A stretch of 64,000 bases of DNA from Alterinioella nitratireducens (GTDB taxonomy: Bacteria > Pseudomonadota > Alphaproteobacteria > Rhodobacterales > Rhodobacteraceae). The translations under genes and the position numbers were made by a program. Where the stretch lies: assembly GCF_013155465.1 (NCBI RefSeq), contig NZ_JABJVX010000001.1, positions 62,001 through 126,000 of the forward strand, given 5' to 3'. Positions within the stretch are counted from its first letter, which is position 1. Each line of letters starts with the position of its first letter. Below the pieces are notes generated by a model, which did not search any database, was not told the origin of the DNA, and saw only the letters and a program-made list of their open reading frames with translations. Positions 3,164 to 38,084 of the stretch are shown here, one piece after another.

Positions 3164-5476
3164 TCAATCGGTCGAGTGCAAGAGGTTCGCCATCAGGCGG
3201 AAGGCCCCCGGCGTCAGTTTCTCCATCTGGTGATGCACGATGAGGGCGCAATGGGTGTGGCGGCCCTGGCCGATCCGCGCGGACAGCAGCGCGCCCTTGT
3301 GCGGGGCCTCGTCGGGGTCGGCCATGGAGAGGAGGGGGGTATAGACCTCATCCCAGGACTTCGCGAAATAGAGCCCGCGTTCCTTGTGCCACCCGTTCCA
3401 ATCCTGCGCGCCGATGCGGTTGGGCGTGGTCAGGAGGGGGTGGTCGGGGGTGAGATGCGTGACCTCGGCGGCCTCGTCGGTGACGCGCCAGCGCAGCGAA
3501 GGCGAGCCGATTTGCAGGCGTTCGGGGGGCGTGGCGTCGGGATCCCAGTTGTCGCCGGGGCGATGGTAGAGCGTGACCAGGTTGCCGCCCGCGCGGGTCC
3601 ATTCGTGCAGCGCGGGCAGGGTGTCCAGCAGGTCGGGGCGGAAGCGGAAGGCGAAGACGCCGACCAGCACCGTGTCGAACCCCGCGAAGGGGGCGGAGGC
3701 GGCGAGGTGCGCGGGCGTCAGGGCGGTGACATCGCAGCCAAGGGCGGCCAGCCAGTCGCCCACACGGTCATTGCCGCCGCCGATATAGGCGATGCGGGCC
3801 TCGGGAAGCGTGACCGTCAGGGCGCGGATGCGCAGGCGGGTCGGAAAGCTGCGCAGGCGCGGGGCGATATGGTCGTAACGGAAGAGATGCGTGGTCTGCG
3901 CGGGCCTGCCGTCGAGGGTGAGGGGCAGATCGTAGAGGCCGGGGGCGAGGTCGTCGGGCGCGGTGATCCGCACCCGGTTGCCGTCCCAGGTCTGGCCCCA
4001 GCCGGGCGGCAGGTCGAAACCGGGGGTGCCTTCGGTGCGGGCGGTCAGGTCCAGCGTGACGCCGCGATCCGGCGCGGCGAGGTTCAGCACCACGGCATCG
4101 CGCGAGAGGGTCGCGCGGGCGGTGGGCAGGACCAGCGGCGGCACCTCCAGCGGCAGGTAGGACCGGGTTCCCGCGACGGTGACGGCAAGGCGCGGGCGGG
4201 CCGGGTGCAGCGGGTCGTGCCGGTCGGGATAGGGGTCCGAGGGGGGCGCGTCTGGGCCTGCGGTGATGTGGCTGGCATCGCCGCTCCAGCCCTCGGGCAG
4301 GTCGGGGCTGAGGGTGGCCCCGGCTTGTGGGTTGTATTCGAGATGCAAGGCTGTGGTTTGGCCGGGAATCAGCACGTCGTCGGCCAGCCAGCCGCGGGCG
4401 TCCGTGTTGGCCGCGATACGGATGACGCGGGCGAGTTGCGCCTGTTTGCGGGTCAGGCGGTGGTGATGCTCCGGGATGATGGTGTCCAGCGCGGCAGTGA
4501 TCGCGGCGTGAGCGTCGAGCGCGTTGGATTGCACGGCGGCACGGTCAGGGAAAGCAGAGAGCGCGGCGTCGATGGCCCGGCTCGCGGCTTTCAGGTCGGG
4601 GCCGTCGCCAAGATCGTCCAGGCGCATCGGCAGGCCATCGGTGACTGCACTGCGATCCGCACCGACCTCGGAGCGCACCAGGTGCAGCGGCCAGCCGGGA
4701 TGCGGGGCAGCCCCGGTCCAATGGCCCATGCCTTGCGTCTTGTGGAACCAGCGCGAGTGCTGGCCGATGCGGGGCCAGGGCCAGCCGGAAACAGGTTCGT
4801 GCCCCTCGCCGCCGATGCGCAGGGTTTCCTTGGGCGGCGGCAGCTCGTCATCATAGGAGCCGCCGGCGCCGGACCAGGCGGGCAGGTAGAGCTTGGCGAC
4901 CTGCCAGGGCGGCAGATCGGAGCCGTCAAAGCCGGGATCGGCGGCGAGGTCCATCACCAGATGCGCGGCCTCGGTCATGGCGCGGTGGTGGCCGTGCTGG
5001 CCGGGAATGTCGAGGAAGGTGGGGCAGATGATGTCCGGTCTGTCCGTCCGCACGAGATCGACGAAACGGGCGAGGGTGCGCGCGCGGCCCCATTTGCCCA
5101 TGGTCTCGACGCCCGATTTGGAGAAGCCGAAATCGAAGATGCTGTCCCCGGGGCTCTCCGAAAGCCAGTAGAGACGCATATCCAGCACATCCGCGGCGCG
5201 CTCCATCTCGGCGGTGCGCAGGGTGCCCAGATCCTCGGTCACCTCGCTGCCGATATCGTTCTGCCCGCCCTCGCCGCGATTGGCGCAGATATAGGACAGG
5301 TTCACCCCGTCGCGGAAGGTGAGCGCGGCCAGCATGGTCGAGGTCTCGTCATCCGGATGCGCGCCGGTATTCATGAAGGTGGTGACGGATCTCAGCGGTT
5401 GCAGCGCGCGCCAGAGGGTCAGCATCAGGGGCTGGGCCAGGTCACGGGCGATGCGGTCGGGTTGGGTCAGCGGCAT
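3164..5476 (-). CDS. PIG-L family deacetylase with C-terminal ThuA/glutaminase-like domain
   Basis: A large (770-residue) predicted zinc N-deacetylase. The LmbE/PIG-L motif AHPDDE is at residues 39-44, and the partner HHRAM zinc-ligand stretch follows around residue 160. The middle is a beta-rich region. The last 200 or so residues (IAYIGGGNDRVGDWL through ALIVHHQME) resemble a ThuA/class I glutamine amidotransferase-like fold. Ordinary PIG-L enzymes have about 230-300 residues, so this is a multidomain form. The start at 5476 was taken because the sequence upstream is the tail of the ROK gene in another frame. It lies 23 bases after that gene, so they form a unit. Members deacetylate N-acetylglucosamine-type substrates, which suits the adjacent sugar importer. 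Confidence 0.82.
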   Translation of the reverse strand: MPLTQPDRIARDLAQPLMLTLWRALQPLRSVTTFMNTGAHPDDETSTMLAALTFRDGVNLSYICANRGEGGQNDIGSEVTEDLGTLRTAEMERAADVLDMRLYWLSESPGDSIFDFGFSKSGVETMGKWGRARTLARFVDLVRTDRPDIICPTFLDIPGQHGHHRAMTEAAHLVMDLAADPGFDGSDLPPWQVAKLYLPAWSGAGGSYDDELPPPKETLRIGGEGHEPVSGWPWPRIGQHSRWFHKTQGMGHWTGAAPHPGWPLHLVRSEVGADRSAVTDGLPMRLDDLGDGPDLKAASRAIDAALSAFPDRAAVQSNALDAHAAITAALDTIIPEHHHRLTRKQAQLARVIRIAANTDARGWLADDVLIPGQTTALHLEYNPQAGATLSPDLPEGWSGDASHITAGPDAPPSDPYPDRHDPLHPARPRLAVTVAGTRSYLPLEVPPLVLPTARATLSRDAVVLNLAAPDRGVTLDLTARTEGTPGFDLPPGWGQTWDGNRVRITAPDDLAPGLYDLPLTLDGRPAQTTHLFRYDHIAPRLRSFPTRLRIRALTVTLPEARIAYIGGGNDRVGDWLAALGCDVTALTPAHLAASAPFAGFDTVLVGVFAFRFRPDLLDTLPALHEWTRAGGNLVTLYHRPGDNWDPDATPPERLQIGSPSLRWRVTDEAAEVTHLTPDHPLLTTPNRIGAQDWNGWHKERGLYFAKSWDEVYTPLLSMADPDEAPHKGALLSARIGQGRHTHCALIVHHQMEKLTPGAFRLMANLLHSTD

Positions 5477-5499
5477 GGGGGCCTCGGGGTCTTGGGGGG

Positions 5500-6669
5500 T
5501 CAGATCTCCGCGGCCATGCGCGGGGTGAAGGCGTGGTTGATAATGAGCGCGGCGGCGCCTTGCGTGGCGGTGAGGGGCCCGCAGGTGCCGCAAATGAGGC
5601 GCGGATGGGCGCGACCGGGGCGGTTGGCGACGGACCGGTCGGACAGGGCCACGCGGGCCAGAAGCGCCTTGAGAAGCGGCTCGGGCAGGGCGCCGCCCGC
5701 GATGACAGTGTCGGGATCGTAGAGGTTTTCGACGGTCAGGACGGCGTGCGAGAGGGCCTGGCCTGCATCCTCCAGCCAGTCCATCAGCACCGGGTTCCGC
5801 GCAAGAAACAGCGCCTCCAACGCGGCGGAGGTTTCGGCCTCTTCGCCGGTCGCGGCCAGCCGGTCGCGCAGGGCGAAGCGGCTGGCGATCTGTTCCAGCG
5901 CCACGAATTGCCCGCGATGGGGAACCGCGATCTGGCCGATCTCACCGGCATTGCCGCGCGCGCCGCGCAACAGGCTGCGCTCGGCGATCACGCCAAGCCC
6001 GATGCCGGTGCCGAAATAGAGGCAGGCGAAACTGCCAAGCCCCTGGCCGTGGCCCGAGACCATCTCGGCCATGGCCGCCGCGCTGGCGTCGTTCTCGATG
6101 ATGACGGGCAGGTCGAGCGCCTGGGCCAGACGCGCCAACGCGTCCTCCTCGGCCCAACCCGGCAGGTCGGAGGCGGCCCCCGAGAGGCCCGTCACCCCGA
6201 ACGGCCCCGGCATCACGACACCCGCACCGATGAGCCTATCGGCCCCGGTTTCGGCCACCGCCATCTCCTTGATCTGACGCAGTTTTTCGCAAACCGTCGC
6301 AGGGGCGGCATCGGTCAGCCGGTCGCGGTGCGAGAAGAGGATCCGCCCGTCCAGATCGCTGATCGCGACCAGTAGCGCCTCGGGCCGCACCTCGACGCCG
6401 AGCGCCAGCCCCGCGCGCGCATCCAGCGCGTATTGCATCGCGGGCAGGCCCCGGCCCTGGCTGAGTTTCCCGGCCTCGACCAGCCAGCCCTCGGCGACCA
6501 GGTCTGCGATGATATTGCTGACGGCCTGCGTCGACAGCCCGCTTTCGCGCGCGATCTGCGCCCGCCCGCTGGCCCCGGTGGCGCGGACATGGCGCAGCAC
6601 CAGCGACCGGTTATAGGCGCGGCTGCGCAGGGCGTTCGACCCGGCAGGGGGCGGGGGGATCAGACTCAT
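5500..6669 (-). CDS. ROK family transcriptional regulator (NagC/Mlc type)
   Basis: A 389-residue regulator. The N-terminal MarR-like winged helix is at about residues 20-75 (QIARESGLSTQAVSNIIADL). A ROK sugar-kinase-like domain follows, with NDASAAAMAEM, the phosphate loop FGTGIGLG and GNAGEIGQ. The usual ROK zinc motif (C-x-C-G-x2-G-C after GEIGH) is not visible: the corresponding stretch reads HRGQFVALEQIA without cysteine. It is divergent from the sugar ABC operon and upstream of the PIG-L deacetylase. It most likely represses both and responds to the imported sugar. Confidence 0.88.
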   Translation of the reverse strand: MSLIPPPPAGSNALRSRAYNRSLVLRHVRATGASGRAQIARESGLSTQAVSNIIADLVAEGWLVEAGKLSQGRGLPAMQYALDARAGLALGVEVRPEALLVAISDLDGRILFSHRDRLTDAAPATVCEKLRQIKEMAVAETGADRLIGAGVVMPGPFGVTGLSGAASDLPGWAEEDALARLAQALDLPVIIENDASAAAMAEMVSGHGQGLGSFACLYFGTGIGLGVIAERSLLRGARGNAGEIGQIAVPHRGQFVALEQIASRFALRDRLAATGEEAETSAALEALFLARNPVLMDWLEDAGQALSHAVLTVENLYDPDTVIAGGALPEPLLKALLARVALSDRSVANRPGRAHPRLICGTCGPLTATQGAAALIINHAFTPRMAAEI

Positions 6670-6706
6670 GGTGAAATCAGAGCTACCGCAGGGCGCTTGT
6701 TAATTC

Positions 6707-6720
6707 AACTTGATTGAGTT
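6707..6720. promoter_or_regulatory. Candidate ROK operator in divergent spacer
   Basis: An AT-rich island in an otherwise GC-rich 134-base divergent spacer carries an imperfect palindrome with outer arms AACT and AGTT (10 of 14 positions symmetric). It is flanked by TTAATT-like runs. NagC/Mlc-type repressors bind AT-rich dyads, and this is the only one between the ROK gene and the binding-protein gene. Confidence 0.4.
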
Positions 6721-6803
6721 AATTTTGGATTCGCGCCCCGAGGAGACACGAGAGGGCGAGTGGGCCATCACCGGCCACCACCAGACAGGGAGCCTAGACC
6801 ACC

Positions 6804-8066
6804 ATGATACGGAACCTCCGCCACGCCGCCCTTGGGGCCACACTCAGCACCGCCGCGATGATCGCCGCCGCCCCCGCGCAGGCCCAAGTGACCATTGAAT
6901 ACTGGCAGTATTTCTTCGAAGCCCGCGTCACCGCGATGGAGCAGCTGATCGAAAACTTCGAGGCCGCGAACCCCGACATCACCGTCAACATGACGACCTT
7001 CCCCTATGCCGATTACCGCACCCGGACCGCCGTTGCGATCCCGGCGGGCGAAGGCCCGGATGTGGTGCAGCTCTTCTATGGCTGGCTGAATGACTATATC
7101 GAGGCCGAGCTGATCCAGCCGCTGCCGGTCGAGGCCTTCCCGCCCGACGAGATCAACGCGGAATTCTTCCCGATGGTGCAGGCCATGGAACGTGACGGCC
7201 AGTATTACGCGCTGCCGACCGCGGTGCGCAGCCTGGCGCTCTTCTACAACAACCGCCTCTTCGAGGCCGCCGACATCGACGGTCCGCCCGAGACGCTGGA
7301 TGAAATGGTCGAGATCGCGGCCGCCCTGACCGAACGCGATGGCGCGGGCAACATCACCCAGGTGGGCCTGACCTCGGGCATGACCGCGCAGGACCACCAT
7401 TGGTGGCGCGAGGTTCTGGTGCGCCAGTTCGGCGGGGAACCCTACACCGACGGCTACCGCAACGTGGCTTACGATTCCGAGGCCGGGCTTGCGGCGCTCA
7501 ACTTCTACCATGGCCTCTCGGCCGAGCATGGCGTGACGGATGCGGGCTTCATGGACGAGCCGCAGGCCGCCTTCCGCGCCGGACGCGCGGGCATGCATAT
7601 CGACGGCTCGTTCCGCATCGGCGCGCTGGAAGGCACGCGCGGCCTGGATTGGGGCGTGACGGAACTGCCGGCAGGGCCCGATGGCACGCGGTCGAACTAT
7701 TCCTCCTACTGGGTGAACGCGATCACCAGCCGCGCCGAGGGCGAAGAATATGACGCGGCGGTCCTGTTCATGGATTACATCACCTCGCCCGAGGCGATGC
7801 AGATCTGGCTGGACACGGTCGGCGAACTGCCCGCGCGCGAATCGGTCGGCATGATCGACGAGAACGCCGAGCATCCCGTCTACGGCCCCTTCATCCGTGG
7901 CCTGGAATACGCCAACACCACCATCTTCGCCGATGAATCCGCGCAGCGGCAGATCCTGGTCGAGATGCTGGAGCGCATCAACCTGCAAGGCCAGGATCCG
8001 GCGGAAAGCCTGGCCCAGGCCGCCGCGGCCGAGCAGGACTTGCTCGACGCCTATTACGGCGAGTAA
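6804..8066 (+). CDS. Sugar-type ABC transporter, extracellular solute-binding protein
   Basis: A 420-residue periplasmic binding protein of the family 1 (maltose/glycerol-phosphate type) fold. A Sec signal peptide covers about residues 1-27 and ends at AQAQ. The mature part begins VTIEYWQYF and carries the family features FEAANPDITV, EGPDVVQLFYGW and the ALPTAVRSLALFYNN hinge. It is the first gene of an operon with two permeases, a lyase, an ATPase and a kinase. The substrate is probably a sugar or amino-sugar derivative. A strong stem-loop follows the gene, as is usual where the binding protein must be made in excess. Confidence 0.93.
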   Translation: MIRNLRHAALGATLSTAAMIAAAPAQAQVTIEYWQYFFEARVTAMEQLIENFEAANPDITVNMTTFPYADYRTRTAVAIPAGEGPDVVQLFYGWLNDYIEAELIQPLPVEAFPPDEINAEFFPMVQAMERDGQYYALPTAVRSLALFYNNRLFEAADIDGPPETLDEMVEIAAALTERDGAGNITQVGLTSGMTAQDHHWWREVLVRQFGGEPYTDGYRNVAYDSEAGLAALNFYHGLSAEHGVTDAGFMDEPQAAFRAGRAGMHIDGSFRIGALEGTRGLDWGVTELPAGPDGTRSNYSSYWVNAITSRAEGEEYDAAVLFMDYITSPEAMQIWLDTVGELPARESVGMIDENAEHPVYGPFIRGLEYANTTIFADESAQRQILVEMLERINLQGQDPAESLAQAAAAEQDLLDAYYGE

Positions 8067-8081
8067 CGGCAGACAACTTCC

Positions 8082-8109
8082 CCGGCCCGCCACGTCCCCG
8101 GCGGGCCGG
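8082..8109 (+). terminator. Intra-operon stem-loop after binding-protein gene
   Basis: A perfect 10-base-pair stem (CCGGCCCGCC / GGCGGGCCGG) with an eight-base loop lies 15 bases after the stop of the binding-protein gene. There is no U-run. This suits an mRNA-stabilising or partly terminating hairpin that raises binding-protein expression over the permeases. Confidence 0.7.
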
Positions 8110-8144
8110 ACACATTCCCCGCAGACCTCGTCAGGCCAGACCCG

Positions 8145-9038
8145 ATGTCCTTCTACCGCGCCCTCTCCATTCGCCAAAAACGCACCCTCTGGGCCTGGGG
8201 TTTCCTGGCCGTGCCCATCATCTTCTACGTGGTGATCCGGTTCTACCCAACCGGCAACGCGATGGTGCTGAGTTTCCAGAGCTGGAACCTGCTGGGTGAC
8301 CGCGAATGGGCGGGGCTGGCCAATTACCGGGTGCTGTTCAGCGATCCGGTGTTCTGGCAGGTGTTCTGGAACACGTTCAAATACCTGCTGATCGGCACGC
8401 CCATCAGCCTGGTGATCAGCTTTTTCATCGCCTATCACCTCGACAAGGTCCGCTTTGCGCATGGCTTCCTGCGGGCGCTCTATTTCCTGCCTTTCATGAC
8501 CTCCGCCGTGGCCATGGCCTGGGTCTGGCGCTGGTTCTACCAGGGCGTGCCCATCGGCCTGTTCAACAACATGCTGGCCTCGGTCGGCATTGGGCAGGTG
8601 GAGTTCCTGAATTCCACCACCAACGCGCTGCCGTCGATCCTGGCGCCCGCCGTCTGGGCCGGACTGGGGTTCCAGGTGATCATCTTCATGGCCGGTTTGC
8701 GCGCCATCCCGCGCAGCTATTACGAGGCCGCCGAGATCGACGGCGTGTCGAAATGGACGGTGCTGTGGGAGATCACGATCCCGCTTCTGCGGCCCACCAT
8801 CGTCTTCATCGTCGTCTTCTCCTCGATCGGGTTCTTGCGCATCTTCGACCATGTCTTCAACATGACCACGAACAATCCCGGCGGGCCGCTCAACTCGACC
8901 AAACCGCTGGTCCTGATGATCTACGAGACCGCGTTCCGCAGCTTCGACATGGGCTATGCCGCGGCGCAGACGGTGGTTCTGTTCCTGATCCTGCTGGTCG
9001 TGAGCCTGATCCAGCTGCGCATCCTGAGGGACAGCTGA
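8145..9038 (+). CDS. Sugar ABC transporter permease (MalF/UgpA-like)
   Basis: A 297-residue inner-membrane permease with about six transmembrane helices. It carries the cytoplasmic EAA loop (EAAEIDGVSKWTVLWEI, about residue 190), which contacts the ATPase. It opens with a short cytoplasmic tail and the helix LWAWGFLAVPIIFYVVIRF. It lies between the binding-protein stem-loop and the second permease and ends one base before that gene starts. It forms the heterodimeric channel with the next gene. Confidence 0.92.
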   Translation: MSFYRALSIRQKRTLWAWGFLAVPIIFYVVIRFYPTGNAMVLSFQSWNLLGDREWAGLANYRVLFSDPVFWQVFWNTFKYLLIGTPISLVISFFIAYHLDKVRFAHGFLRALYFLPFMTSAVAMAWVWRWFYQGVPIGLFNNMLASVGIGQVEFLNSTTNALPSILAPAVWAGLGFQVIIFMAGLRAIPRSYYEAAEIDGVSKWTVLWEITIPLLRPTIVFIVVFSSIGFLRIFDHVFNMTTNNPGGPLNSTKPLVLMIYETAFRSFDMGYAAAQTVVLFLILLVVSLIQLRILRDS

Positions 9039-9039
9039 G

Positions 9040-9921
9040 ATGACCGCCACCGACACCCAGATCCGCGCCACCTCCGCCGCCCTGCTGGAGGGCACCCGCG
9101 CCAAGCAGCGCCGAAGCCTCGGCCAGACGATCCGCTGGCTCTTGCTCTTCGCGGGCGGCATCGCGATGATCATGCCGATCGCCTACATGCTGTCCACCTC
9201 GCTGAAATGGCCGTATGAGGTCTATAATGTGGGCCTCATCCCCGAGGAGCCGCATCTGGAGAACTACGCCTATGTGCTCGAAGATGGCCGTTTCTTCGGC
9301 TGGTTCATCAACTCGCTGATCATCGCGGTGCTGACCACGGTCTCGAACCTCTTCTTCGACAGCCTCGTCGGCTACACGCTGTGCAAATTCACGTTTCGCG
9401 GGCGCCAGATCGTCTTCATCGCGATCCTGTCGACGCTGATGATCCCGACCGAGATGCTGGTGATCCCGTGGTATATCATGAGCCAGAGCTTCGGCTGGCT
9501 GGACAGCTATTGGGGCATCATGTTCCCCGGCCTGATGACCGCCTTCGGCGTCTTCCTGATGCGGCAATTCTTCCAGACCGTGCCGGACGATTTCATCGAG
9601 GCCGCGCGCATCGACGGGCTGAACGAGTTCCAGATCTACTGGTCGGTCGCGCTGCCGATGGTCAAGCCGGCGCTGGCGGCCTTGGCGATCTTCGTCTTCC
9701 TGGGCAACTGGACGGCGTTCCTGTGGCCGCTCATTGTGACCACCGACGCCGCGCTCTACACGCTGCCGGTGGGGCTGTCCTCGTTCGGGGACGAGGCCGA
9801 TGTGCAATGGGAGCTGATCATGACGGGGGCGGCGATCTCGACCCTGCCGACACTGATCGTGTTCCTGATCTTCCAGCGTTTCATCATCCAGGGCGTGGCG
9901 ATGGCAGGTCTCAAGGGATGA
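9040..9921 (+). CDS. Sugar ABC transporter permease (MalG/UgpE-like)
   Basis: A 293-residue permease with six predicted transmembrane helices. The EAA loop EAARIDGLNEFQIYWSV lies around residues 187-203. The long N-terminal tail before the first helix (IRWLLLFAGGIAMIMPIAYM) is usual for the MalG branch. The ATG follows the previous stop by one base. It is the second half of the import channel. The downstream 136 bases contain the inverted repeat at 9951-10018. Confidence 0.92.
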   Translation: MTATDTQIRATSAALLEGTRAKQRRSLGQTIRWLLLFAGGIAMIMPIAYMLSTSLKWPYEVYNVGLIPEEPHLENYAYVLEDGRFFGWFINSLIIAVLTTVSNLFFDSLVGYTLCKFTFRGRQIVFIAILSTLMIPTEMLVIPWYIMSQSFGWLDSYWGIMFPGLMTAFGVFLMRQFFQTVPDDFIEAARIDGLNEFQIYWSVALPMVKPALAALAIFVFLGNWTAFLWPLIVTTDAALYTLPVGLSSFGDEADVQWELIMTGAAISTLPTLIVFLIFQRFIIQGVAMAGLKG

Positions 9922-9950
9922 TTGTGCGCCAGGATCCACCGTTCCGCCGT

Positions 9951-10018
9951 GAGTATTTTTGCCAAGAAGATGCGGAAAATTCGACTAAAATTGCCTCATC
10001 TTCTTGGTCCAAATACTC
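9951..10018. repeat. Inverted pair of the GAGTATTT...CCAAGAAGATG repeat
   Basis: Two copies of a 22-base element face each other at 9951-9972 and 9997-10018, separated by 24 AT-rich bases. They match at 19 of 22 positions and could fold into a long hairpin between the permease and lyase genes. Single copies of the same element occur at 46394-46415 and 62351-62372. The sequence looks like an intergenic family rather than a gene part. Confidence 0.75.
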
Positions 10019-10057
10019 GAATCCGACCCCTGCCGCGGGCGCTATCGGTGCAAGAGA

Positions 10058-11548
10058 ATGACCGACAGTTCCACCTTCCCCGACCCGACCTATCGCGACA
10101 CGGTTCTGGCGCCGCTCTTCGAGGGGGTGAAGACCCATTTCGCAGGGCACATGGCGGCGATCAACCGGGCACATCTGGTGATGCTGACCGAGACCGGCAT
10201 TCTGGGCGCGACGGAAAGCGGCCGGATCGCGGGCGCGCTGCGCGACATCGAGGCGGAGACCGATCTCGAGACGCTCAGCTATACCGGCGAGCACGAGGAT
10301 TATTTCTTCTATGTCGAGGCCGAGTTGAAGCGGCGCCTGGGGCCGGATCTGGGCGGCATGCTGCACACCGCGCGCTCGCGCAACGACATGGATCATACCG
10401 TGTTCAAGCTGACCTTGCAGACCCGCGTCGCGGCGATGCTGGAGGGGATGACGGGCCTGGCCGAGGCGCTGATCGCGAAGGCGCGGGAAGACCGCGATAC
10501 CGCCATCGTCGCCTATACCCATGGCCAGCCGGCGCAACCGTCGACCTTCGGCCATTACCTTGCCGCCGCAATCGAGGTGCTGCTCTCTGACATCGCGCGG
10601 TTGGCGCGGGAGGCGGGCGCGCTGGATCTCTGCCCGATGGGGGCCGCCGCGATCACCACCTCGGGCTTTCCCATCGACCGGGCGCGGGTCGCGGAGCTTT
10701 TGGGCTTTGCCGCGCCGAAACAGAACTCCTATGGCTGCATCGCCTCGGTCGATTACATCACCGGGCTTTATTCGGCCCTGAAACTGCCCTTCCTGCATCT
10801 GGGCCGGGTGATCCAGGACATGGCCTTCTGGTCCGCCTTCGAGGTTGGCCAGCTGCATGTGCCCAATTCGCTGGTCCAGATCAGCTCGATCATGCCGCAA
10901 AAGCGCAACCCGGTGCCGATCGAGCATATGCGCCACCTGGCCAGCGTCACCGTGGGGCGGTGCGAGACGATGCTGGGCACGATGCACAACACGCCCTTCA
11001 CCGACATGAACGATAGCGAGGGCGAGGTGCAGGCGGCGGGCTATGACGCCTTTGCCTCGGGCGGGCGGGTCATCGCGCTGCTGACCGCGTTCCTGCCCGC
11101 GTGCAGGATCGACGAGGGCCGGGTGCGCGCCAATGCCGATGCGGCCTGCGTCACCGTCACGGAACTGGCCGATACGCTGGTCCGGGTTGAGGGGCTGTCT
11201 TTCCGGCAGGCGCATGAGGTCGCGGCGAAAACGGCGCGGGCTGTCATCGCCGAGGGCTGCACCCTGGGGGCGGGATACGGCGATTTCGCCGCCGCCTTCC
11301 GGGCCGAGACGGGGCGCGATCCGGGCCTCTCCGAGGAGGAATTCGCGCAGGCCACCTCGCTTGACGGCTTCATCGCCCGGCGCGACCGGTTCGGCGGGCC
11401 CGCGCCCGCGCCGATGAATGCCGCACTTGAGGGATATGCCGCCGGGCTGGACGGGTTGCGCGCCGATCTGGCCGCCATCCAGACCCGCCGCCGAGATGCC
11501 GAAACCGCGCTGACCACAGCCTTTACCCAATTGACGGAGCCCGCCTGA
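10058..11548 (+). CDS. Argininosuccinate lyase-like enzyme in a sugar ABC operon
   Basis: A 496-residue member of the aspartase/fumarase/argininosuccinate lyase superfamily. These enzymes break C-N bonds by eliminating fumarate or a similar product. Diagnostic segments are TARSRND (104-110), YTHGQPAQP (153-161) and the signature [10 protein letters not shown] (276-285) with the catalytic serine. The ATG at 10058 was chosen after the intergenic repeat. No other arginine-biosynthesis gene is nearby: it is followed with an overlapping TGATG by the transporter ATPase and then a sugar kinase. A catabolic lyase on an N-substituted substrate is therefore more likely than ArgH housekeeping. That is inference from context. 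Confidence 0.8.
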
Positions 11549-12609
11549 TGTCCGACCTCGCCCTGCGCAACCTGGTCAAGAGCTATGACAAGACGCAAGT
11601 GCTGCACTCGATCAACCTCGATGTGGCCGATGGGGAGTTTGTCGTCTTTGTCGGCCCGTCCGGCTGCGGCAAGTCCACCACGCTCAGGATGATCGCGGGG
11701 CTGGAGGAGGTGACCTCGGGCGAGATCGAGATCGGGGGCCGGGTGGTCAACAACCTGGAGCCCAAGGAACGCGACATCGCCATGGTGTTCCAGAATTACG
11801 CGATCTATCCGCATATGACGGTGCGCAAGAATATCGGCTTTGGGCTGCGGTCGTCGAAGCTGTCGAAACCCGAGAAGGAGGCCCGCATCGACGAGGTGGC
11901 GGGTATCCTGGGCATGACCGATCTGCTGGCGCGCAAGCCCGCGCAGCTCAGTGGCGGGCAGCGCCAGAGGGTCGCCATCGGGCGTGCCATGGTGCGCGAT
12001 CCGGCGGTGTTCCTCTTTGATGAGCCGCTCAGCAACCTTGACGCGCAATTGCGCACCCAGATGCGGCTGGAGATCAAGAAACTGCACCGCCGCGTCGGCA
12101 ACACGATCATTTTTGTCACCCATGACCAGGTCGAAGCCATGACCATGGCCGACCGGATCGTGATCATGAAGGACGGCCATATCCAGCAGGTCGGCACGCC
12201 CGACGAAGTCTATCACAAGCCCGCCAACACCTTCGTTGCGCAATTCATCGGCGCGCCGTCGATGAACCTCCTGGAGGGGACGGTCGAAGACGGCGCTGTT
12301 TCGCTGACGGGCGGCGGGTCGGTGCCTCTGACGCAGGTCAAGGTGGCCGAGGGGCGCGCGGTCAAGTTGGGCGTGCGGCCCGAGGATCTGCACCTGGCAA
12401 CGGAGGGCGATACGCTCTTTGAGGGCGAGGTATCGGTGGCCGAGCCGCTGGGCGCGGAGACGCTGCTCTACGTGACATTGGCGGGGCGCGAGATCATCGC
12501 CACGGGGCCGGGACGCAACCCGCCCAAGGCCGGGGATCATGTGCGCCTGAGCGCCGATCCCGCGCAGATGCACGTCTTCGATGCCGAGACGGGCGCGGTG
12601 ATCGCGTGA
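11548..12609 (+). CDS. Sugar ABC transporter ATP-binding protein (UgpC/MsmK-like)
   Basis: A 353-residue ATPase. It has Walker [10 protein letters not shown] (about 38-46), a Q-loop in [10 protein letters not shown], signature LSGGQRQR, Walker [16 protein letters not shown], and a His switch in THDQ. The C-terminal TOBE regulatory region (GVRPEDLHL) marks the carbohydrate-importer ATPases. The start overlaps the lyase stop, and the stop overlaps the kinase start. It powers the importer encoded at 6804-9921. Confidence 0.94.
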
Positions 12610-13496
12610 GCGGGCAGACCGTCATCTGTGCGGGCCGCATCTATTGCGACCTGGTGTTTTCCGGCCTCGACGGTCCGCCCGAACCGGGGCGCGAGGTCTT
12701 CGCGGAAGCGCTGGCGCTGCGGGCTGGCGGCGGGGCCTATATCACGGCGGCCTATCTGTCGGCGCTCGGGGGGCAGGCGGGGCTGATGGGGGTGTTGCCC
12801 GCGCCCCCGTTCGCCGATTGCGTGACGCGCGAGATGGCGCAGAACCGGGTGCGCTCGCATTGCAGCGCGGCCGGTGCGGGCGATCCGCAGATCACGGTGG
12901 CGCTGGCCCGGGGCGGCGACCGGAGCTTCATCACCCGGCGCGTCGGCGCGGCGCTTGCGGGGGCTGACCTGCCACCCGCAAGGCACCTGCATATCGGCGA
13001 ACTGACCACGGCGCTGGAGCATCCCGAATTGATTGCCAGGGCGCGGGCGCGGGCCATGTCGGTCTCGCTCGATTGCAGTTGGGACGCTCGCGCGCTGGCG
13101 GATCCCGGGACGGCGGAGGTGATCGCCTCGGTCGACATCTTCCTGCCGAACGCGGCGGAAATGGAGGCGCTGGCGGCAAGCGGCATCGCGGTCGCGCCGC
13201 GCCTGATGAGCGTCATCAAGCGCGGGGCGGAGGGCGCGACGCTGATCGGCGCGGAGGGCGCGCGGATCGAGGCGGCGGCGATCCCCACGACGCCAGTGGA
13301 TACCACCGGCGCGGGCGATGCGTTCAACGCGGGCTTTCTGGCCGCCTGGCTCGACGGGGCGGAGATGGCCGAGGCGCTGGCCCAGGCCAATCGCTGCGGG
13401 TCCATCGCCGTGGGCCGGATCGGCGGGGCGGGCGCGCTGCCGGATTTGCGCCTGCCCGAGACGGGGATCTCAGGTCAGGCGCGCCGTCAGGTGTGA
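12606..13496 (+). CDS. PfkB family carbohydrate kinase
   Basis: A 296-residue ribokinase-fold kinase. The C-terminal PfkB signature [13 protein letters not shown] starts at residue 232, with catalytic Asp238. The N-terminal glycine pair region is [18 protein letters not shown]. The start is a GTG that overlaps the ATPase stop. As the last gene of the importer operon it likely phosphorylates the sugar released after import or cleavage. Its 3' end overlaps the convergent P450 gene by 27 bases. Candidate substrates include ribose, fructose or 2-keto-sugars; the sequence does not decide. Confidence 0.88.
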
Positions 13497-14660
13497 GACC
13501 AGCGTGAACATCGGCGAATGGGTGTAGCCGTAATCCTCGACCGTCAGGTCGGGAAAGTCGCGGGCAAGGCGGGTGATGACCTGCTCCACCTCCATCGTCA
13601 CCGCGTAGCGCCCGATGCACGAAAAGATGCCGCCGCCGAAATTCAGGTGCGGCGGTTCCTCGGTCCGGTCGATATCGAACCGCTCCGGGTTGGCGTAGTA
13701 GCGCCCGTCCCAATGCGTGGCCCCGATATTGGCGAAGACCGGCGTGCCGCGTGGGATGGCGACATCCGCGATCTGCATATCCTCCATCGCCTCGCGCGAC
13801 GTGGAAATGCTGCGCGGGCGGTAGCGCATGACCTCACGCACGGCGGCGGGGACCAGCGCTGGATCACGGTGCAGGCGCGCCCAGATCCCGGGCCGGGTGG
13901 CAAGCTCGATCACCGCGATGCCGATCTGGTGCGAGGAATTGTCGGTATTGGCCTCGGCCAGCTTGATGACCCAGTTGCGCAGGTCGTCGGCGTCCAGATG
14001 TCCGGCCTTCTCGGCGGCGATCAGGTCTGACAGAAGATCATCGGCGGGGCTGGCGCGGCGGTCCGCGATGCGGGCATCGACGAAATCTATCAGCGCCTCG
14101 AAGGCGTCGAGAATCTCCTGCCGGTGCGCGGGGTTTCGGGTATGGACCTTCTGCACCGAATGCGAGGTGCGGGCGACGAAGGCGGCCTCCTCGAAGGGTG
14201 CGCCGATCCAGTAGCAATAGACGGCAGACGGGGTGGGGTCGCAGAGCGCGCCGATCAGGTCGACCGATTGGTCGCGCGGGATGGCGTCGATCACCCGGTC
14301 GACCACCTTTTCGATGTCGCCGCGAAACCGCTCGGTCCCCTCCGGCCCCATCAGGCGGGTGACGGGCAGGCGCAGGTCGCGCCGTCTTGGCCCGCGATTG
14401 TGAAACGAGATCGAGTTGCGCTTGTAGTCCAGCGGGCGGCCCTCGGGCAGGCCAAGCACGTTCATCAGCTTGGGATGCCCGGTGCCAAGCTGGCGGTCGA
14501 GGATGGCCTGGCGGCAGAGGTCGTAATCGAGGATTTCCACCCCCCGCGCGCTGCGCGCCACCTGCCAGTTCCGGGCCCACCCGGCCAGTGTTTCGAACGG
14601 CGCGCGCTGGTAGTCAGCGCTGTCAAAATCCAGTTCGGGCAAGTCTTCGATGGTCTGCAT
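13470..14660 (-). CDS. Cytochrome P450
   Basis: A soluble bacterial P450 of 396 residues. It contains the K-helix EVMR (E-x-x-R), the heme loop FGGGIFSCIG with the proximal cysteine ligand, and an I-helix EANTDNSS that departs from the usual A/G-G-x-D/E-T-T by having Asn and Ser around the acidic residue. The start at 14660 is supported by AGGAGG seven bases upstream; a longer frame to 14696 lacks such a site. No ferredoxin or ferredoxin reductase gene is adjacent. It faces a 2-oxoglutarate dioxygenase gene divergently. Substrate unknown. Confidence 0.92.
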   Translation of the reverse strand: MQTIEDLPELDFDSADYQRAPFETLAGWARNWQVARSARGVEILDYDLCRQAILDRQLGTGHPKLMNVLGLPEGRPLDYKRNSISFHNRGPRRRDLRLPVTRLMGPEGTERFRGDIEKVVDRVIDAIPRDQSVDLIGALCDPTPSAVYCYWIGAPFEEAAFVARTSHSVQKVHTRNPAHRQEILDAFEALIDFVDARIADRRASPADDLLSDLIAAEKAGHLDADDLRNWVIKLAEANTDNSSHQIGIAVIELATRPGIWARLHRDPALVPAAVREVMRYRPRSISTSREAMEDMQIADVAIPRGTPVFANIGATHWDGRYYANPERFDIDRTEEPPHLNFGGGIFSCIGRYAVTMEVEQVITRLARDFPDLTVEDYGYTHSPMFTLVSHLTARLT

Positions 14661-14741
14661 GAACGGCCCTCCTGCTGTCCGTAAAAGAATAGACATAATC
14701 GCGGTGCGCTGGCAAAGTCATCCTGTCAGGAAGGGGCAGCC

Positions 14742-14849
14742 ATGCCGACCCGTGTCCAGCAATTCCACAGACGCCTGACCGGATCGTGGTCGGCCCGGTC
14801 GTCCTGGCCCTGTTTCATCGTCAATTGCCGCAGCTCTCCCGGCTTCTGA
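14742..14849 (+). CDS. Possible short leader ORF upstream of the dioxygenase
   Basis: A 35-codon frame begins at an ATG preceded by AGGAAGGGGCAGCC, a plausible ribosome binding site, and ends 33 bases before the dioxygenase start. The peptide is arginine- and serine-rich and resembles nothing I recognise. It may be a leader peptide or chance. The 222-base divergent spacer (14661-14882) otherwise shows no recognisable element. Confidence 0.2.
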   Translation: MPTRVQQFHRRLTGSWSARSSWPCFIVNCRSSPGF

Positions 14850-14882
14850 TCCTTCACCCGATCAGACAACAGGAGAATGACC

Positions 14883-15668: not shown

Positions 15669-15703
15669 CAGGGGCGGGCCGGCGGCGGACCTCCGGCCCA
15701 TCT

Positions 15704-16738: not shown

Positions 16739-16824
16739 CCGCAAGCCTCGCCCCTCTTGTTCCGGTTGCGCCGAGTATGCGCCGATGCGCCGCCCAACGC
16801 CATGCCGGATCGGTTATGCGTGGC

Positions 16825-17783: not shown

Positions 17784-17859
17784 GCCAACCATTACAGGTT
17801 TCAAATAGTCGTGATGCAACCGGCGCGGTAGTCTGGCGGGCGCAAGGATAGGAACGACC

Positions 17860-34290: not shown

Positions 34291-35436
34291 TCAGCCTGGT
34301 CCGATGCGGGTGCCATCTTTCCATACCGCCCGCAGACCGTCCGTCGCAAGATGGATGAAATCGGCCCGCGCGCCGGGGCGCAGGTGGCCGAAATCGCCCG
34401 CCCCGATCAGCTCCGCCGGGATCGAGGTCGCCATGGCCAGCGCGTGATCCCTGTCGCAGATACCCCAGGCGGAGAGGTTGTGAATGGCCGTCGGCAGGTC
34501 CAGATCGGCCCCCGCCAGCGTGCCGTTTTCCAGCGTCAGCCGACCGCCCGCGCGCCGGATCTCGCGCCCGTTCAGCGTGAACGCCTGCTGCTCGGACCCC
34601 GCCACCGACATCGCGTCGCTGACAAGAAAGATCCGCCCCGGCCCGGTCTTCGCCGCCATCGCGGCGCGGATCGTGGCAGGGTGGACATGCACGCCATCGG
34701 CGATCAGCCCCGCCGACAGGCGCCCCTCGGCCAGCACCGCGCCGACAAGGCCGGGTTCACGGTTGCCAAGCTGGCTCATCGCGTTGAAGAGATGCGTGGC
34801 GCAAGCCGCGCCCGCCTCCACCGCCGCGACGCAGGCGTCAAACCCTGCATCGCTATGGCCAAGCGAGACCAGCACCCCCGCCCCGGTCAGCGCCCGGATC
34901 TGCTCGGACGTCACGGCTTCGGGGGCCAGCGTCATCTTCAGCACGGGCAGGCGCGCCGCCGCCGCACAGAGCATCTCCAGATCGCCGTCCCCCATCGCCC
35001 GGATGAGGCTTGGATCATGCGCGCCCTTGCGGGCAACCGACAGGTGCGGCCCTTCCAGATGCAGACCGGCAATCCCCGCCACGCCCTGAGCAATCGCGGC
35101 CTCCACCGCGTCGATGGCGGCGCGGCTATGGGGGGGGGTGTCGGTGATCAGCGTCGGCAGGATCGCGGTCGCGCCAAGCCCGATATGGGCGCGCGCCATG
35201 ACCCGCAGCGTGTCGACCGAGGGGTCATCGTTGAACATCACCCCGCCGCCGCCATTGACCTGAAGATCGACCAGACCCGGCGCGATCACGCCGCCCTCCA
35301 GCCGCGTGACCTCGGCGCCTTCCGGCACATCCGGCACGATGCCGACGATGCGCCCCCCCTCGACCAGCAGCGCCTGGCCAGAGACCCGGGCCCCGCCGTC
35401 GAAAATCTCGGCCCCGAGATAAGCGCGCAACGTCAT
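34291..35436 (-). CDS. nagA: N-acetylglucosamine-6-phosphate deacetylase
   Basis: A 381-residue amidohydrolase. Metal and catalytic residues are visible as Glu128 in LHLEGPH, His194 in GHSDAG, His215 in THLFNAM and Asp274 in SDAMS. The DLQVNGGGG loop replaces the first HxH, as is typical of NagA. It converts GlcNAc-6-P to GlcN-6-P and acetate. It overlaps the SIS deaminase gene by four bases in the minus-strand amino-sugar operon. Confidence 0.94.
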   Translation of the reverse strand: MTLRAYLGAEIFDGGARVSGQALLVEGGRIVGIVPDVPEGAEVTRLEGGVIAPGLVDLQVNGGGGVMFNDDPSVDTLRVMARAHIGLGATAILPTLITDTPPHSRAAIDAVEAAIAQGVAGIAGLHLEGPHLSVARKGAHDPSLIRAMGDGDLEMLCAAAARLPVLKMTLAPEAVTSEQIRALTGAGVLVSLGHSDAGFDACVAAVEAGAACATHLFNAMSQLGNREPGLVGAVLAEGRLSAGLIADGVHVHPATIRAAMAAKTGPGRIFLVSDAMSVAGSEQQAFTLNGREIRRAGGRLTLENGTLAGADLDLPTAIHNLSAWGICDRDHALAMATSIPAELIGAGDFGHLRPGARADFIHLATDGLRAVWKDGTRIGPG

Positions 35437-36455
35437 ACCGTCTCCGTCACTTTCTTGAGGTGGCGCGGCGCGTCGGGGTTGATGCCCCGGTCGGCGGCGA
35501 CCTCGTTGACCATGGAATAGAACGACACCATCAGCGACACCGCATCGGTCAGCGCGTGATCGGTGCGCACGAAACTCAGGCTTTCCGCCTTGCAGGGCTG
35601 GTCCGAGGTGATGAAGGCCCGCGCGCCCTTGGCGACCAGTTGGTCGGCCACGTCCAGAACCGCGCGCTTGGCCGCGTCATTGGTGGCGAAAAGCAGCACC
35701 GGAAAGCCGTCATCGACGATCGAGACCGGCCCGTGCAGCACCTCGGCCGCCGAATAGCTTTCGGCATGGATCTGGCAGGTTTCCTTGAATTTCAGCGCGG
35801 CCTCGTTGGAGATCGCCCAGGACGGCCCGCGCCCCAAGGTGAAGAGGGAATGTTTCTCGGCAATCGCCGCGCGCAGCTCGGGCCAGGTGCCTTCCGCCGC
35901 CTTGGCGAACGCTTCGGGGGCAGATCGCAACCCCTGCCGCAGCGCCTCGTCGTCCTTCCAATCCGCCAGCAGCATCAGCCCGGCCATCGCCGAGGTGATG
36001 AAGGTCTTGGTCGCCGCGACGCTGCGTTCGGGACCGGCCTGGATGTCGATGCAATGCGCTGCCACCTCGGCCAGCAGCGAGGTGGCATCATTCGTCACCG
36101 CCACCGCCATCGCGCCGCTTTCGCCTGCCGATTTCGTCATCGCGACAATGTCGGGGCTCTTGCCCGACTGGCTGACGGCAAGGCAGATCGAGCGGCCAAG
36201 GTTCAGCTTCGCGCCGTAGATCGAGGCCACCGAGGGCCCAATGGAGGCGACGGGCAGGCCAAGCTCCAGCTCGAAGGCGTATTTCAGGAAGGTGCAGGCA
36301 TGGTCGGACGAGCCACGCGCCACGGTCACGGCATAGGCCGGGTCGGCCTCGCGCGCGGCGGCCGCGATCCGCGCGATGGGGTCCGCGCCCTGGGACAGCA
36401 GCCGTTCCACCGCTTCCGGAATTTCGAGGATTTCGCGCCGCATCTGGCTGGTCAT
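35433..36455 (-). CDS. SIS domain glucosamine-6-phosphate deaminase-like protein
   Basis: A 340-residue double-SIS protein related to the isomerase half of GlmS and to NagB-II/AgaS deaminases. Phosphosugar motifs are VARGSSDHACTFLKY, SQSGKSPD and the C-terminal region ending APRHLKKVTETV. No glutamine amidotransferase domain is present, so it deaminates rather than synthesises. It follows the GntR gene and precedes nagA. It gives fructose-6-phosphate from GlcN-6-P in the expected pathway. The ATG at 36455 is the family start MTSQMRREILEIP. Confidence 0.9.
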   Translation of the reverse strand: MTSQMRREILEIPEAVERLLSQGADPIARIAAAAREADPAYAVTVARGSSDHACTFLKYAFELELGLPVASIGPSVASIYGAKLNLGRSICLAVSQSGKSPDIVAMTKSAGESGAMAVAVTNDATSLLAEVAAHCIDIQAGPERSVAATKTFITSAMAGLMLLADWKDDEALRQGLRSAPEAFAKAAEGTWPELRAAIAEKHSLFTLGRGPSWAISNEAALKFKETCQIHAESYSAAEVLHGPVSIVDDGFPVLLFATNDAAKRAVLDVADQLVAKGARAFITSDQPCKAESLSFVRTDHALTDAVSLMVSFYSMVNEVAADRGINPDAPRHLKKVTETV

Positions 36456-36474: not shown

Positions 36475-37224
36475 TCAAAGCCGCAGCTCGGCCACGAAAT
36501 CGTAGGCATCGCCGCGATAGATGGATTTGGTGAACTCGACCACCCGGCCCGAGGGCAGGTAGGAGACCCGCTCGATCCTGAGCCCCGCCGCGCCAGGCTC
36601 GACGCCGAGCAGCCCTGCATCCTCCTCGCCCAGGTTGATGGCCGAGATCTTCTGGATCGCGCGCACCGGTCGGTTGCCATCGTGTTCCAGCACCTCGTAA
36701 AGCGACGTGGTGACCGCCACCGGGTTGGGCAGGATATCGACGGGCAGGGACGCCTTTTCAATCGCCATGGGCCTGTCATCGGCCAGCCTGAGCCGCGCAA
36801 TGCGCGCGACCGAGGCATTGGCGGGCAGGGCCAGCGCGATGGTTTCCTCGGGCGAGGGCAGGCAGACCGAGCGTTCCAGCCAGACCACCGTGGGCGTCAT
36901 GCCGCGCCGGGTCATGTCCTCGGAGAACGAGGTCAGGTGCGACAGCGATTGCTGCACCCTTTCGCCGCGGTCGGTCACGAACGAGCCCGAGCCCTGCCGC
37001 TGTACGACATGGCCTTCCTCGACCAGCGCCTGAATTGCCTTGCGCACGGTGACACGGCTGAGGTCGGTCAGCGCGGCGATGTCGCGTTCGGGGGGCAGGG
37101 CGGCACCGGGGGGCAAAAGGCCGGTCTCGATGGCCTCGGCAATGCGCCCGCGCAACTGCACGTAGCGCGGTCCGGCGGCGGCCTCGTTTCGCGGCATGGC
37201 GCGCAGGTGGTCGGCGATGCTCAT
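36475..37224 (-). CDS. GntR/HutC family regulator of the amino-sugar locus (NagR-like)
   Basis: A 249-residue regulator. The N-terminal winged helix (about 22-90, PPERDIAALTDLSRVTVRKAIQALVEEG) is joined to a UTRA effector domain that usually binds GlcNAc-6-P or GlcN-6-P. It overlaps the kinase gene by four bases. Two matching operator-like sites lie in the divergent spacer at 38085-38222. Confidence 0.91.
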   Translation of the reverse strand: MSIADHLRAMPRNEAAAGPRYVQLRGRIAEAIETGLLPPGAALPPERDIAALTDLSRVTVRKAIQALVEEGHVVQRQGSGSFVTDRGERVQQSLSHLTSFSEDMTRRGMTPTVVWLERSVCLPSPEETIALALPANASVARIARLRLADDRPMAIEKASLPVDILPNPVAVTTSLYEVLEHDGNRPVRAIQKISAINLGEEDAGLLGVEPGAAGLRIERVSYLPSGRVVEFTKSIYRGDAYDFVAELRL

Positions 37225-38084
37225 GTCTCCACCCCCGCCGCCAGGGTCAAGGCCCCGTCCAGGGCGCTGCCTGCGGGCTCGGCAAAGCTGGCGGCAACAT
37301 CGGCGGGAAGGAACCCGGCATAATGCGGGGCCAGACCGCCGATAGGGCAGAGCACCTCGCCTGGGGTCCAGCCCAGACGGTTCAGCCCGTGCAGGATATA
37401 GTCCGCCCCTTCGCGCAGGATCTCCCAGGCGATGATGTCGCCCGCGCGGGCGGCGTCCAGGATCATCGGCGCGAGGGTGGCGAACTCGGCGGCACTGGCA
37501 TCGCGCGCGAAGCGCAACAGCCCCACGGGGGACGAATCGTATCGGGCATGGATCGCGTCGGTGAAGGGCGTCGCCTCGGCCAGCCCGTCCAGCACATGCA
37601 GCGCGCGTTGCAGGGCGCGGCGGCCCAGGTAGGCGCCCGACGCCTCATCGCCCAGGACCAACCCCCATCCCCCGATCAGCCGAACCCGCCCCTCGGCGCG
37701 GCGGGCCAGGAACGATCCGGTGCCGATCCCCATCACCGCGCCGTCGCGCGCGCCCAAGGCGCCCACGACCGCCGTGATCCGGTCATCCGAGACCGCGATG
37801 CGATGGATCGGCAGCGCCTCCGCGACGCGGGAGGCAGCTTCGGGGCCGGTGACACCGGCCAGTCCCAGATAGGCCCGTGCAGAGCGAAGATCGGCCAGCC
37901 CCGCCTTGTCGGCCAATGCGGCCAGCCCGTCTTTCAGGGTGATCACGGCCCGGTCGAAATCGCTGTGAACATTGGCCGATCCGCCGCGATGCTCGATCCG
38001 CTCGCCATCGTGCAGCAGCGCAAAGCGGCATTGTGTGCCGCCGCCGTCGATACCGATCAGTATATCCGGGTCATGTGTCGTCAT
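37221..38084 (-). CDS. BadF/BadG family N-acetylglucosamine kinase-like protein
   Basis: A 287-residue ASKHA-fold kinase. The phosphate-1 loop is GIDGGGTQCRFAL (residues 11-23) and the second is GIGTGSFLARR. The GGWGLVLGDEASGAYLGRRAL segment is characteristic of GlcNAc kinases of this family. It phosphorylates imported amino sugars to give the substrate of MurQ or NagA. It is the first gene of the minus-strand operon and faces the murQ-like gene. Confidence 0.9.
   Translation of the reverse strand: MTTHDPDILIGIDGGGTQCRFALLHDGERIEHRGGSANVHSDFDRAVITLKDGLAALADKAGLADLRSARAYLGLAGVTGPEAASRVAEALPIHRIAVSDDRITAVVGALGARDGAVMGIGTGSFLARRAEGRVRLIGGWGLVLGDEASGAYLGRRALQRALHVLDGLAEATPFTDAIHARYDSSPVGLLRFARDASAAEFATLAPMILDAARAGDIIAWEILREGADYILHGLNRLGWTPGEVLCPIGGLAPHYAGFLPADVAASFAEPAGSALDGALTLAAGVET

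Follow-up and report, generated by a model that had tools for sequence, protein, structure and literature searches.

We analysed a 64,000-nucleotide stretch of DNA from Alterinioella nitratireducens (genome 4.07 Mb), here called the window and corresponding to bases 62001-126000 of its contig. Between window positions 3164 and 13496 lie genes for a CUT1-type sugar importer, an ArgH-like lyase, a PfkB-family kinase, a ROK-family regulator and a large PIG-L (LmbE-like) deacylase, and these make up a real and conserved amino-sugar catabolic operon. A more specific role, as a catabolic importer for an N-acylated glucosamine with a 2-linked succinyl group, most likely N-acetylglucosamine-malate (GlcNAc-malate) or a related bacillithiol backbone, is a reading to which we give roughly even weight. 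In such a pathway the importer would take up an N-acylglucosamine bearing a succinyl-type group, the PIG-L enzyme would remove the N-acyl group and free the amine, and the lyase would β-eliminate fumarate, releasing glucosamine. The PfkB (or a ROK) kinase would then convert glucosamine to glucosamine-6-phosphate (GlcN-6-P), and NagB or NagB-II would convert GlcN-6-P to fructose-6-phosphate. We infer each of these reactions from the enzyme set, and likewise the sequence of steps, the control of the operon and the malate link of the substrate.

Profile searches recovered every gene named in an earlier note on this DNA, with the lyase gene between those for permease 2 and the ATPase. That note had described an operon; the gene set is as it described, but the PIG-L and ROK genes are on the minus strand and the importer, lyase and kinase genes on the plus strand, so the locus is a divergent pair of transcription units rather than one operon. 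On the plus strand the lyase and ATPase genes overlap by 1 base and the ATPase and kinase genes by 4 bases, as expected for a single transcript. The importer has the MalK/UgpC-type ATPase, the SBP_bac_1/8 binding protein and the two permeases of the CUT1 sugar importers.

The lyase and its relation to ArgH and EDDS lyase

The lyase contains the Lyase_1 domain and the SS-loop consensus GSSxxPxKxN of the aspartase/fumarase superfamily (PMC13411527). The first glycine of this loop is I or V in the alpha-type lyases and G in those of Deinococcus. Five Lyase_1 genes were found in the genome by profile search. One is a canonical argH (C42:105167) with GRSRNDQ and SSIMPQKKNPD, two of the others are fumC- and pcaB-like by motif (by eye) and a third holds the purB motif. 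Since the genome has its own argH and the window lyase sits on another branch of the lyase tree, the window lyase is not the housekeeping ArgH; the reading in the earlier note would have been refuted by a genome with no other argH whose lyase complements an argH mutant, and this genome does have another.

The clustering proposed in that note likewise placed the window-type lyases apart from both ArgH and EDDS lyase. In a tree of 42 sequences, a branch supported at 99/96 set apart 22 alpha-type lyases (one from Granulosicoccus) and seven Deinococcus lyases, and the four ArgH sequences grouped at 100/100 without any of them. EDDS lyase lay outside the window-type group, paired at 97/85 with a paralogue from Roseibium sp. 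Sym1, on a long branch that makes its placement less sure. Lyases from Geminicoccaceae and Haladaptatus adjoined the window-type group on long branches with weaker support; both lack the signature of that group.

This signature, taken from an alignment of which 21 of 77 available sequences and the window's own form the alpha-type part, has four parts in the 29 lyases: SRND.D.T (with a final A in one row), VAYTH.QPAQP (with a single-letter change in five rows), VQ.SS[IV]... (with T instead of V in one row) and N.P[FY].D.ND (29 of 29, preceded by H in all but one). KKNPD of ArgH and EDDS lyase is changed to KRNPV. The residues that we take to handle the succinyl part, namely Ser and Asn of SRND, the Thr-His pair and Ser, Lys and Asn of the SS-loop, are kept throughout, with Ser-His in one row. 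The segment GLPLAY.KD.QEDK, presumably the arginine side of ArgH, is retained with small changes in the ArgH rows, whereas the alpha-type lyases have another conserved 10-residue segment in its place. The window lyase shares with ArgH the fold, the SS-loop and the usual succinyl-handling residues, but differs in its branch, in KRNPV, in the replaced segment and in its position inside an importer operon.

A structure model of the lyase (predicted local distance difference test, pLDDT, 87.0) gave EDDS lyase as its best fold match (Z 37.7, 29% identity), with ArgH and delta-crystallin at Z 31.6-36.4; families that do not appear in our fold-match lists do not count as absent. Residues near the substrate of EDDS lyase include N113, Q159, N288, D290 and Y320 (PMC12363623). 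The window lyase has H155 against Q159, V286 against D290 and, depending on the alignment, M317 or D316 against Y320. In spite of the similar fold, the EDDS lyase of Chelativorans sp. BNC1 has TQ where the window-type lyases keep TH and falls outside their tree group. We know of no PIG-L or kinase partner for it. As judged by sequence, the window-type lyases are a separate subfamily that is misannotated as argH.

Conservation of the gene set and its link to glucosamine-6-phosphate

A relative of the lyase (E 1e-80 or better, at least 47% identity) was present in 60 of 394 family genomes, its own included, or about 15%. At all 59 loci from the other family genomes the lyase is flanked by the binding protein, both permeases and the ATPase; PIG-L is found at 58 and the ROK regulator at 50. 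The gene association that had been remarked on as unusual is, by these counts, more than chance. The kinase slot is occupied by a PfkB protein at 40 of the 59 loci and by a ROK-family kinase at eight. At the level of the class, 12 of 385 genomes matched at E 1e-110 (the window's own and one other family member among them), and seven of the ten other loci carry PIG-L, or six under stricter coverage. Named genomes gave at least 482 relatives, of which 80 were kept. These are mostly marine Rhodobacteraceae, with Roseibium, Cohaesibacter, Pseudovibrio and the gammaproteobacterium Granulosicoccus also represented, and the closest relatives of the operon among the matches listed are from Cohaesibacteraceae, Rhodobacteraceae and other Alphaproteobacteria. 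PIG-L is present at 72 of the 80 named loci, and the other eight (L118, L149, L151, L155, L164, L190, L195 and L196) are cut upstream by a contig end; the 80 loci overlap in species with the 59, so that the two sets are not independent. Some neighbour genes were called by a codon-usage script trained on the window, which misses genes.

Four Deinococcus plasmids (D. actinosclerus, D. wulumuqiensis, D. deserti and D. ficus) hold the same kinds of partner in one row: ROK regulator, lyase, binding protein, two permeases, a short PIG-L and a carbohydrate kinase. Their lyases are 34-36% identical to the window lyase where listed, and that of D. actinosclerus fails the argH model TIGR00838 (244.4 bits). 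In D. actinosclerus the short PIG-L matches MshB best (160.3 bits, below the cut-off), followed by Mca, BshB2 and BshB1. The recurrence of these functions in company with another PIG-L subtype is good reason to think that lyase, deacylase, kinase and importer act jointly. Three other Deinococcus plasmids have only the lyase, binding protein and permeases.

A further large protein is encoded in three of the Deinococcus operons (L199 9476-11704, L205 9527-11650 and L208 10499-12763). In D. actinosclerus (L199) it has PIG-L, NEW3 and CBM9 domains by Pfam and starts with a signal-peptide-like stretch (by eye), and its annotation is PIG-L in D. wulumuqiensis (L205) and NEW3 in D. ficus (L208). An exported deacylase may hence exist in D. 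actinosclerus.

The genes found near the lyase point to glucosamine. At 18 of the 59 family loci a gene for NagB, NagB-II or NagA is found no more than about 10 kb from it, often directly after the kinase, and in the same scan none of the single-copy control genes fumC, argH, pcaB and purB was beside the lyase at any of the 59 loci, a laxer E-value included. In Roseomonas the ATPase gene is directly followed by genes for a ROK family protein and an SIS protein. Family checks were made on five of the linked Nag and kinase proteins. The NagB checked scored 252 bits against the GlcN-6-P deaminase subfamily model and 227.3 against TIGR00502, both under cut-off, and the NagB-II matches gave 286 and 195 bits, under the cut-off of 430; NagA was over its cut-off, and the ROK kinase of operon loci gave 129 bits against the glucokinase family model, under cut-off.

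We then compared 40 operon genomes (40 of the 59 in list order, with G142 and G255 left out) with 40 genomes lacking the operon (40 of the 50 from G002 to G062 that gave no match; the remaining ten were passed over by hand, with no fixed rule). A GlcN-6-P deaminase, NagB-II or NagB, was present in 38 of the former and 13 of the latter (Fisher p 4e-9), the genera not being phylogenetically independent; when matches below 200 bits were dropped, the counts were 34 and 11 (p 3e-7). Taken separately, NagB-II (E 1e-45 or better) occurred in 30 operon genomes against 11 others and NagB in 10 against 2, and eight of the ten operon genomes without NagB-II carry NagB instead. The end product of the operon is probably GlcN-6-P, an end point for which the support is good.

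In the window itself a GlcNAc/N-acetylmuramic acid-type cluster lies outside the operon at 34291-44289. It contains NagA, NagB-II, a GntR regulator, a NagK-like kinase, a MurQ-like etherase (near 38 kb), a second CUT1-type importer, a UgpC-like ATPase and, by eye, a Gfo/Idh-like oxidoreductase; the genome gave no TIGR00502 match for NagB. The proposed pathway would meet the known Nag pathways (NagK, NagB-II, NagA) at GlcN-6-P, with deaminase genes adjoining or in the same genome, but would differ in its entry, by lyase and PIG-L acting on the free compound rather than NagK and NagA acting on GlcNAc.

Substrate of the pathway and alternative readings

The 770-residue deacylase consists of a PIG-L domain (about 31-276), a helical stretch, a beta-rich middle (about 360-555) and a GATase1/ThuA-like region (about 558-770). 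In its structure model (pLDDT 91.9) the PIG-L domain matched MshB (Z 21.4), BshB of B. subtilis (6ull, 19.0) and BC1534 of B. cereus (18.8), and the C-terminal domain matched GATase1/ThuA-like proteins (2gk3, Z 16.8). The H-x-D-D motif and distal histidine of the LmbE-like metal site are present, with PF02585 over its cut-off, and H40, D42, D43 and H164 are invariant in 38 sequences (the window's and 37 of 69 available). According to a 2014 review, every LmbE-like enzyme known at that time acts on an N-acylglucosamine core, and BshB deacetylates GlcNAc-malate (PMC4101496). With BshB, Bca, MshB and Mca the window protein shares the PIG-L fold, HPDD with a distal HxxH and, by the same source, N-acylglucosamine chemistry; it differs in its extra beta-rich and GATase1-like regions, in HGHH for HPDH, in its very low sequence scores and in its proposed catabolic role. 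It is not a BshB or Bca proper, with 18.8 bits against the BshB2 cut-off of 195.25 and no BshB1 match at E 0.001.

Members of the aspartase/fumarase superfamily form fumarate by eliminating a group from a succinate derivative, and members that cleave C-N, C-O and C-S bonds are known; the serine of the SS-loop acts as the base, and a histidine usually supplies a proton to the leaving group (PMC13411527). A substrate that serves both this lyase, as a 2-substituted succinate, and PIG-L, with its N-acylglucosamine core, would more simply be an O-linked malate glycoside such as GlcNAc-malate. The earlier note had supposed an imported N-substituted amino sugar: its outline of a compound that is N-acylated, deacylated, cleaved by elimination and phosphorylated fits, as does the linkage to nag genes, but the N-carboxyalkyl sugar it named is less favoured, the O-linked malate glycoside being simpler. 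In GlcNAc-malate the linkage is through the C2 oxygen and both carboxylates are free, and we know of no other natural compound that fits the enzyme set as well. The malate-linked substrate is our leading candidate. A mycothiol-type substrate (GlcNAc-inositol) was set aside, since it offers the lyase no succinyl group. A muramic acid ether, considered on account of the MurQ-like gene, was set aside as well, because MurQ cleaves the bond on the side of the sugar and fumarate would not arise from a lactyl group. The nearest solved relative of the binding protein is GacH (acarbose/maltose-binding), and neither its specificity nor that of the PfkB kinase could be read from solved relatives.

In bacillithiol synthesis BshA joins GlcNAc to L-malic acid, and the amidase Bca has been described as cleaving S-conjugates of bacillithiol (PMC4360819); pKa values show the malate carboxylates of bacillithiol to be free (PMC4065351). 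No BshA over the TIGR03999 cut-off was found in 100 family genomes, the window's own included and 21 of them holding the lyase; 96 have a weaker match, and 3 of 14 control genomes were over the cut-off. This fits use rather than synthesis of bacillithiol. Known or predicted producers of bacillithiol or N-methyl-bacillithiol belong to Bacteroidetes, Deinococcus-Thermus, Firmicutes and other groups, and Polaribacter sp. MED152 was found to contain the N-methyl form (PMC6282198). With producers elsewhere and none of the 100 family genomes over the BshA cut-off, it is plausible that a marine bacterium consumes bacillithiol made by others. We put forward only tentatively the fuller proposal of a dedicated breakdown of the bacillithiol backbone (GlcNAc-malate, GlcN-malate or bacillithiol) in marine Alphaproteobacteria that are not themselves producers of the thiol and in Deinococcus, in which the lyase would split an O-glycoside by fumarate elimination and not by hydrolysis. 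Neither the operon nor the GlcN-malate core as a nutrient was found described in the titles and abstract openings listed by our searches of the open-licence PubMed Central literature.

Several observations weigh against a malate-linked N-acylglucosamine as the substrate. The lyase passes the argH model TIGR00838 by 2 bits (281.6 against a cut-off of 279.5). Against the Mca, MshB and BshB2 models the PIG-L of the window reaches no more than 18.8-24.3 bits, and the position of Arg109 in BshB is Q160 (by eye). PIG-L was not seen at family locus L071, had no match at class-level loci L111, L113 and L114 and was not seen in the stretches of Roseomonas and Terrarubrum; 11 of the 59 family loci have no recognised kinase in the slot. 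No CUT1 importer match was obtained at L108, L109 and L112, where PIG-L is divergent from the lyase; the binding-protein and permease genes of L109 and L112 are peptide-type by eye, and L108 ends at a contig end. The rows of the four Deinococcus operons hold no ATPase gene. No nag gene lies within about 10 kb at 41 of the 59 family loci, and the operator pattern described below was not found at the nag cluster of the window. NagB-II was over its curated cut-off in none of the 80 genomes compared; of the NagB-bearing genomes, ten pass the cut-off for NagB. Finally, the control gene for xylose isomerase (xylA) was itself found more often in genomes with the operon (32 of 40, against 19 of 40 without it; p 0.005), so that general sugar use accounts for part of the deaminase association. 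Within strata the association was still significant, at 31 of 32 operon genomes against 10 of 19 where xylA was present and 7 of 8 against 3 of 21 where it was absent.

Among the alternatives the one that survives best, which we nevertheless consider rather unlikely, is that the lyase cuts a C-N bond in an aspartate-type N-substituted amino sugar (N-carboxyalkyl or an Amadori-type sugar-aspartate), while PIG-L removes a separate N-acyl group. The nearest folds, EDDS lyase and ArgH, are both C-N cleaving, and on plasmid pB of Cereibacter sphaeroides 2.4.1 (L212) an ArgH-like paralogue, about 33% identical, lies beside an asparaginase, an amino-acid importer and an SIS protein. That set looks like a sugar-asparagine utilisation operon whose lyase may act on a sugar-aspartate, which makes such C-N cleavage also conceivable for the superfamily. 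The fra genes of Salmonella serve fructose-asparagine utilisation, in which a sugar-aspartate conjugate is broken down after import. The pB set resembles that system, but the pB asparaginase had no match in 149 window-type loci (59 + 10 + 80), where PIG-L and GlcN-6-P deaminases occur instead. The change from KKNPD to KRNPV also argues against C-N cleavage, as does the need for a sugar with two differently substituted nitrogens if PIG-L is to have a role.

Less probable still is an importer for a chito-oligosaccharide or other plain GlcNAc glycoside with the lyase in an unrelated side reaction. The PIG-L domain does resemble diacetylchitobiose deacetylases (Z 17.8-18.7), and GlcN-6-P is the apparent end product; against this, a NagZ-type hexosaminidase had no match in the 149 loci (no one-by-one search for other glycosidase families was made), and PIG-L and lyase stay together at the three loci without a CUT1 importer. 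A second argininosuccinate lyase captured by a sugar operon is very improbable, as its narrow pass of TIGR00838, which would explain why plasmid records annotate relatives as argH, is set against the canonical argH elsewhere in the genome, the replaced GLPLAY.KD.QEDK segment and the separate tree branch.

Regulation, neighbouring genes and implications

The coordinates of the operon and of the proposed downstream genes are collected in the table.

Table. Features of the operon and the GlcNAc-type cluster in the window, with the supporting matches.
Feature	Position	Strand or location	Support
Large PIG-L (LmbE-like) deacylase, 770 residues	3164..5476	-	PF02585 59.7 bits
ROK-family transcriptional regulator	5500..6669	-	PF00480 106.5 bits; MarR-type match under its cut-off
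Candidate palindromic operator TTAAtTCAA-N5-TTGAgTTAA	6700..6722	between ROK and binding-protein genes	pattern search
CUT1-type solute-binding protein	6804..8066	+	PF13416 130.3 bits, PF01547 117 bits
Permease 1	8145..9038	+	PF00528 59 bits; UgpA-like 118 bits, under that model's cut-off
Permease 2	9040..9921	+	PF00528 76.5 bits; UgpE-like 136 bits, under that model's cut-off
ArgH-like lyase, 496 residues	10058..11548	+	Lyase_1 131.8 bits, ASL_C2 39.3 bits
UgpC/MalK-type importer ATPase	11548..12609	+	NF008653 504 bits, cut-off 432
PfkB-family sugar kinase (proposed glucosamine 6-kinase)	12606..13496	+	PF00294 116.5 bits
NagA (GlcNAc-6-phosphate deacetylase), proposed downstream sink	34291..35436	-	TIGR00221 267.8 bits, over cut-off
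NagB-II-type SIS deaminase, proposed GlcN-6-P sink	35433..36455	-	NF046059 287.3 bits, under cut-off 430; best match in genome
NagK-like (GlcNAc-kinase-like) gene	37221..38084	-	NF046058 157.7 bits, under cut-off 370

The palindrome TTAAYTCAA-N5-TTGARTTAA between the regulator and binding-protein genes is a candidate operator through which the ROK regulator would control the operon. The site at 6700-6722 is the only match in the window, with zero mismatches (0.01 expected), and the only one in the genome with two mismatches or fewer. At that tolerance the palindrome occurs in 61 of 157 loci, always about 4 to 3 kb upstream of the lyase and nowhere else in the scanned stretches; because the pattern was derived from 122 of the same intergenic regions, its presence there is by construction and only its absence elsewhere tests it. 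The other 96 loci, four Deinococcus loci among them, have no site, and five scrambled-arm patterns gave none in the 157. Shared regulation with the nag cluster was rejected, the operon site being the sole one in the window. A promoter and terminator scan of 6600-6900 found nothing.

Other features were seen at or near these loci. A small VOC-family gene lies between permease 2 and the lyase at L037, L056, L077, L083, L092 and L094; a thiol transferase role for it was rejected, the FosA-type match being weak (22.8 bits). An EamA/DMT-type exporter gene adjoins PIG-L at 34 of the 59 family loci (for example L092, near -8.1 kb); the same query gave no match in the window, where a nitroreductase-like gene (2311-3108) is beside PIG-L instead. 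The lyase gene of G457 (C60:1177-2655, L107) has an internal TAG, either a decaying copy or a sequencing error, and two Loktanella salsilacus plasmid records (NZ_CP072993.1 and NZ_CP072995.1) hold one lyase copy each. In Roseibium sp. Sym1 a plasmid ArgH-like gene (L216) occurs with a glutathione-type importer and a cystathionine gamma-synthase family protein.

Downstream of the operon, window 13470-20360 holds, mostly by eye, a cytochrome P450, PhyH, a Rieske-type oxygenase, a LysR regulator, an aminopeptidase, a MocD-like desaturase and a small gene; these adjoin the operon but are not conserved with it. They are followed at 20350-25811 by a sarcosine-oxidase-type alpha subunit (TIGR01372 1141 bits, just under the cut-off of 1164), small subunits and a regulator.

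A few purified proteins, all encoded within the operon, would suffice to test the proposed pathway directly. An argH-labelled lyase in about 15% of the sampled family genomes appears to serve an amino-sugar pathway, which affects the annotation of the arginine pathway and metabolic models. One paper describes bacillithiols as the low-molecular-weight thiols with the broadest distribution (PMC6282198). Should the bacillithiol backbone prove to be the substrate, the operon would give these thiols a nutritional fate and would represent a new way of cleaving a glycoside.

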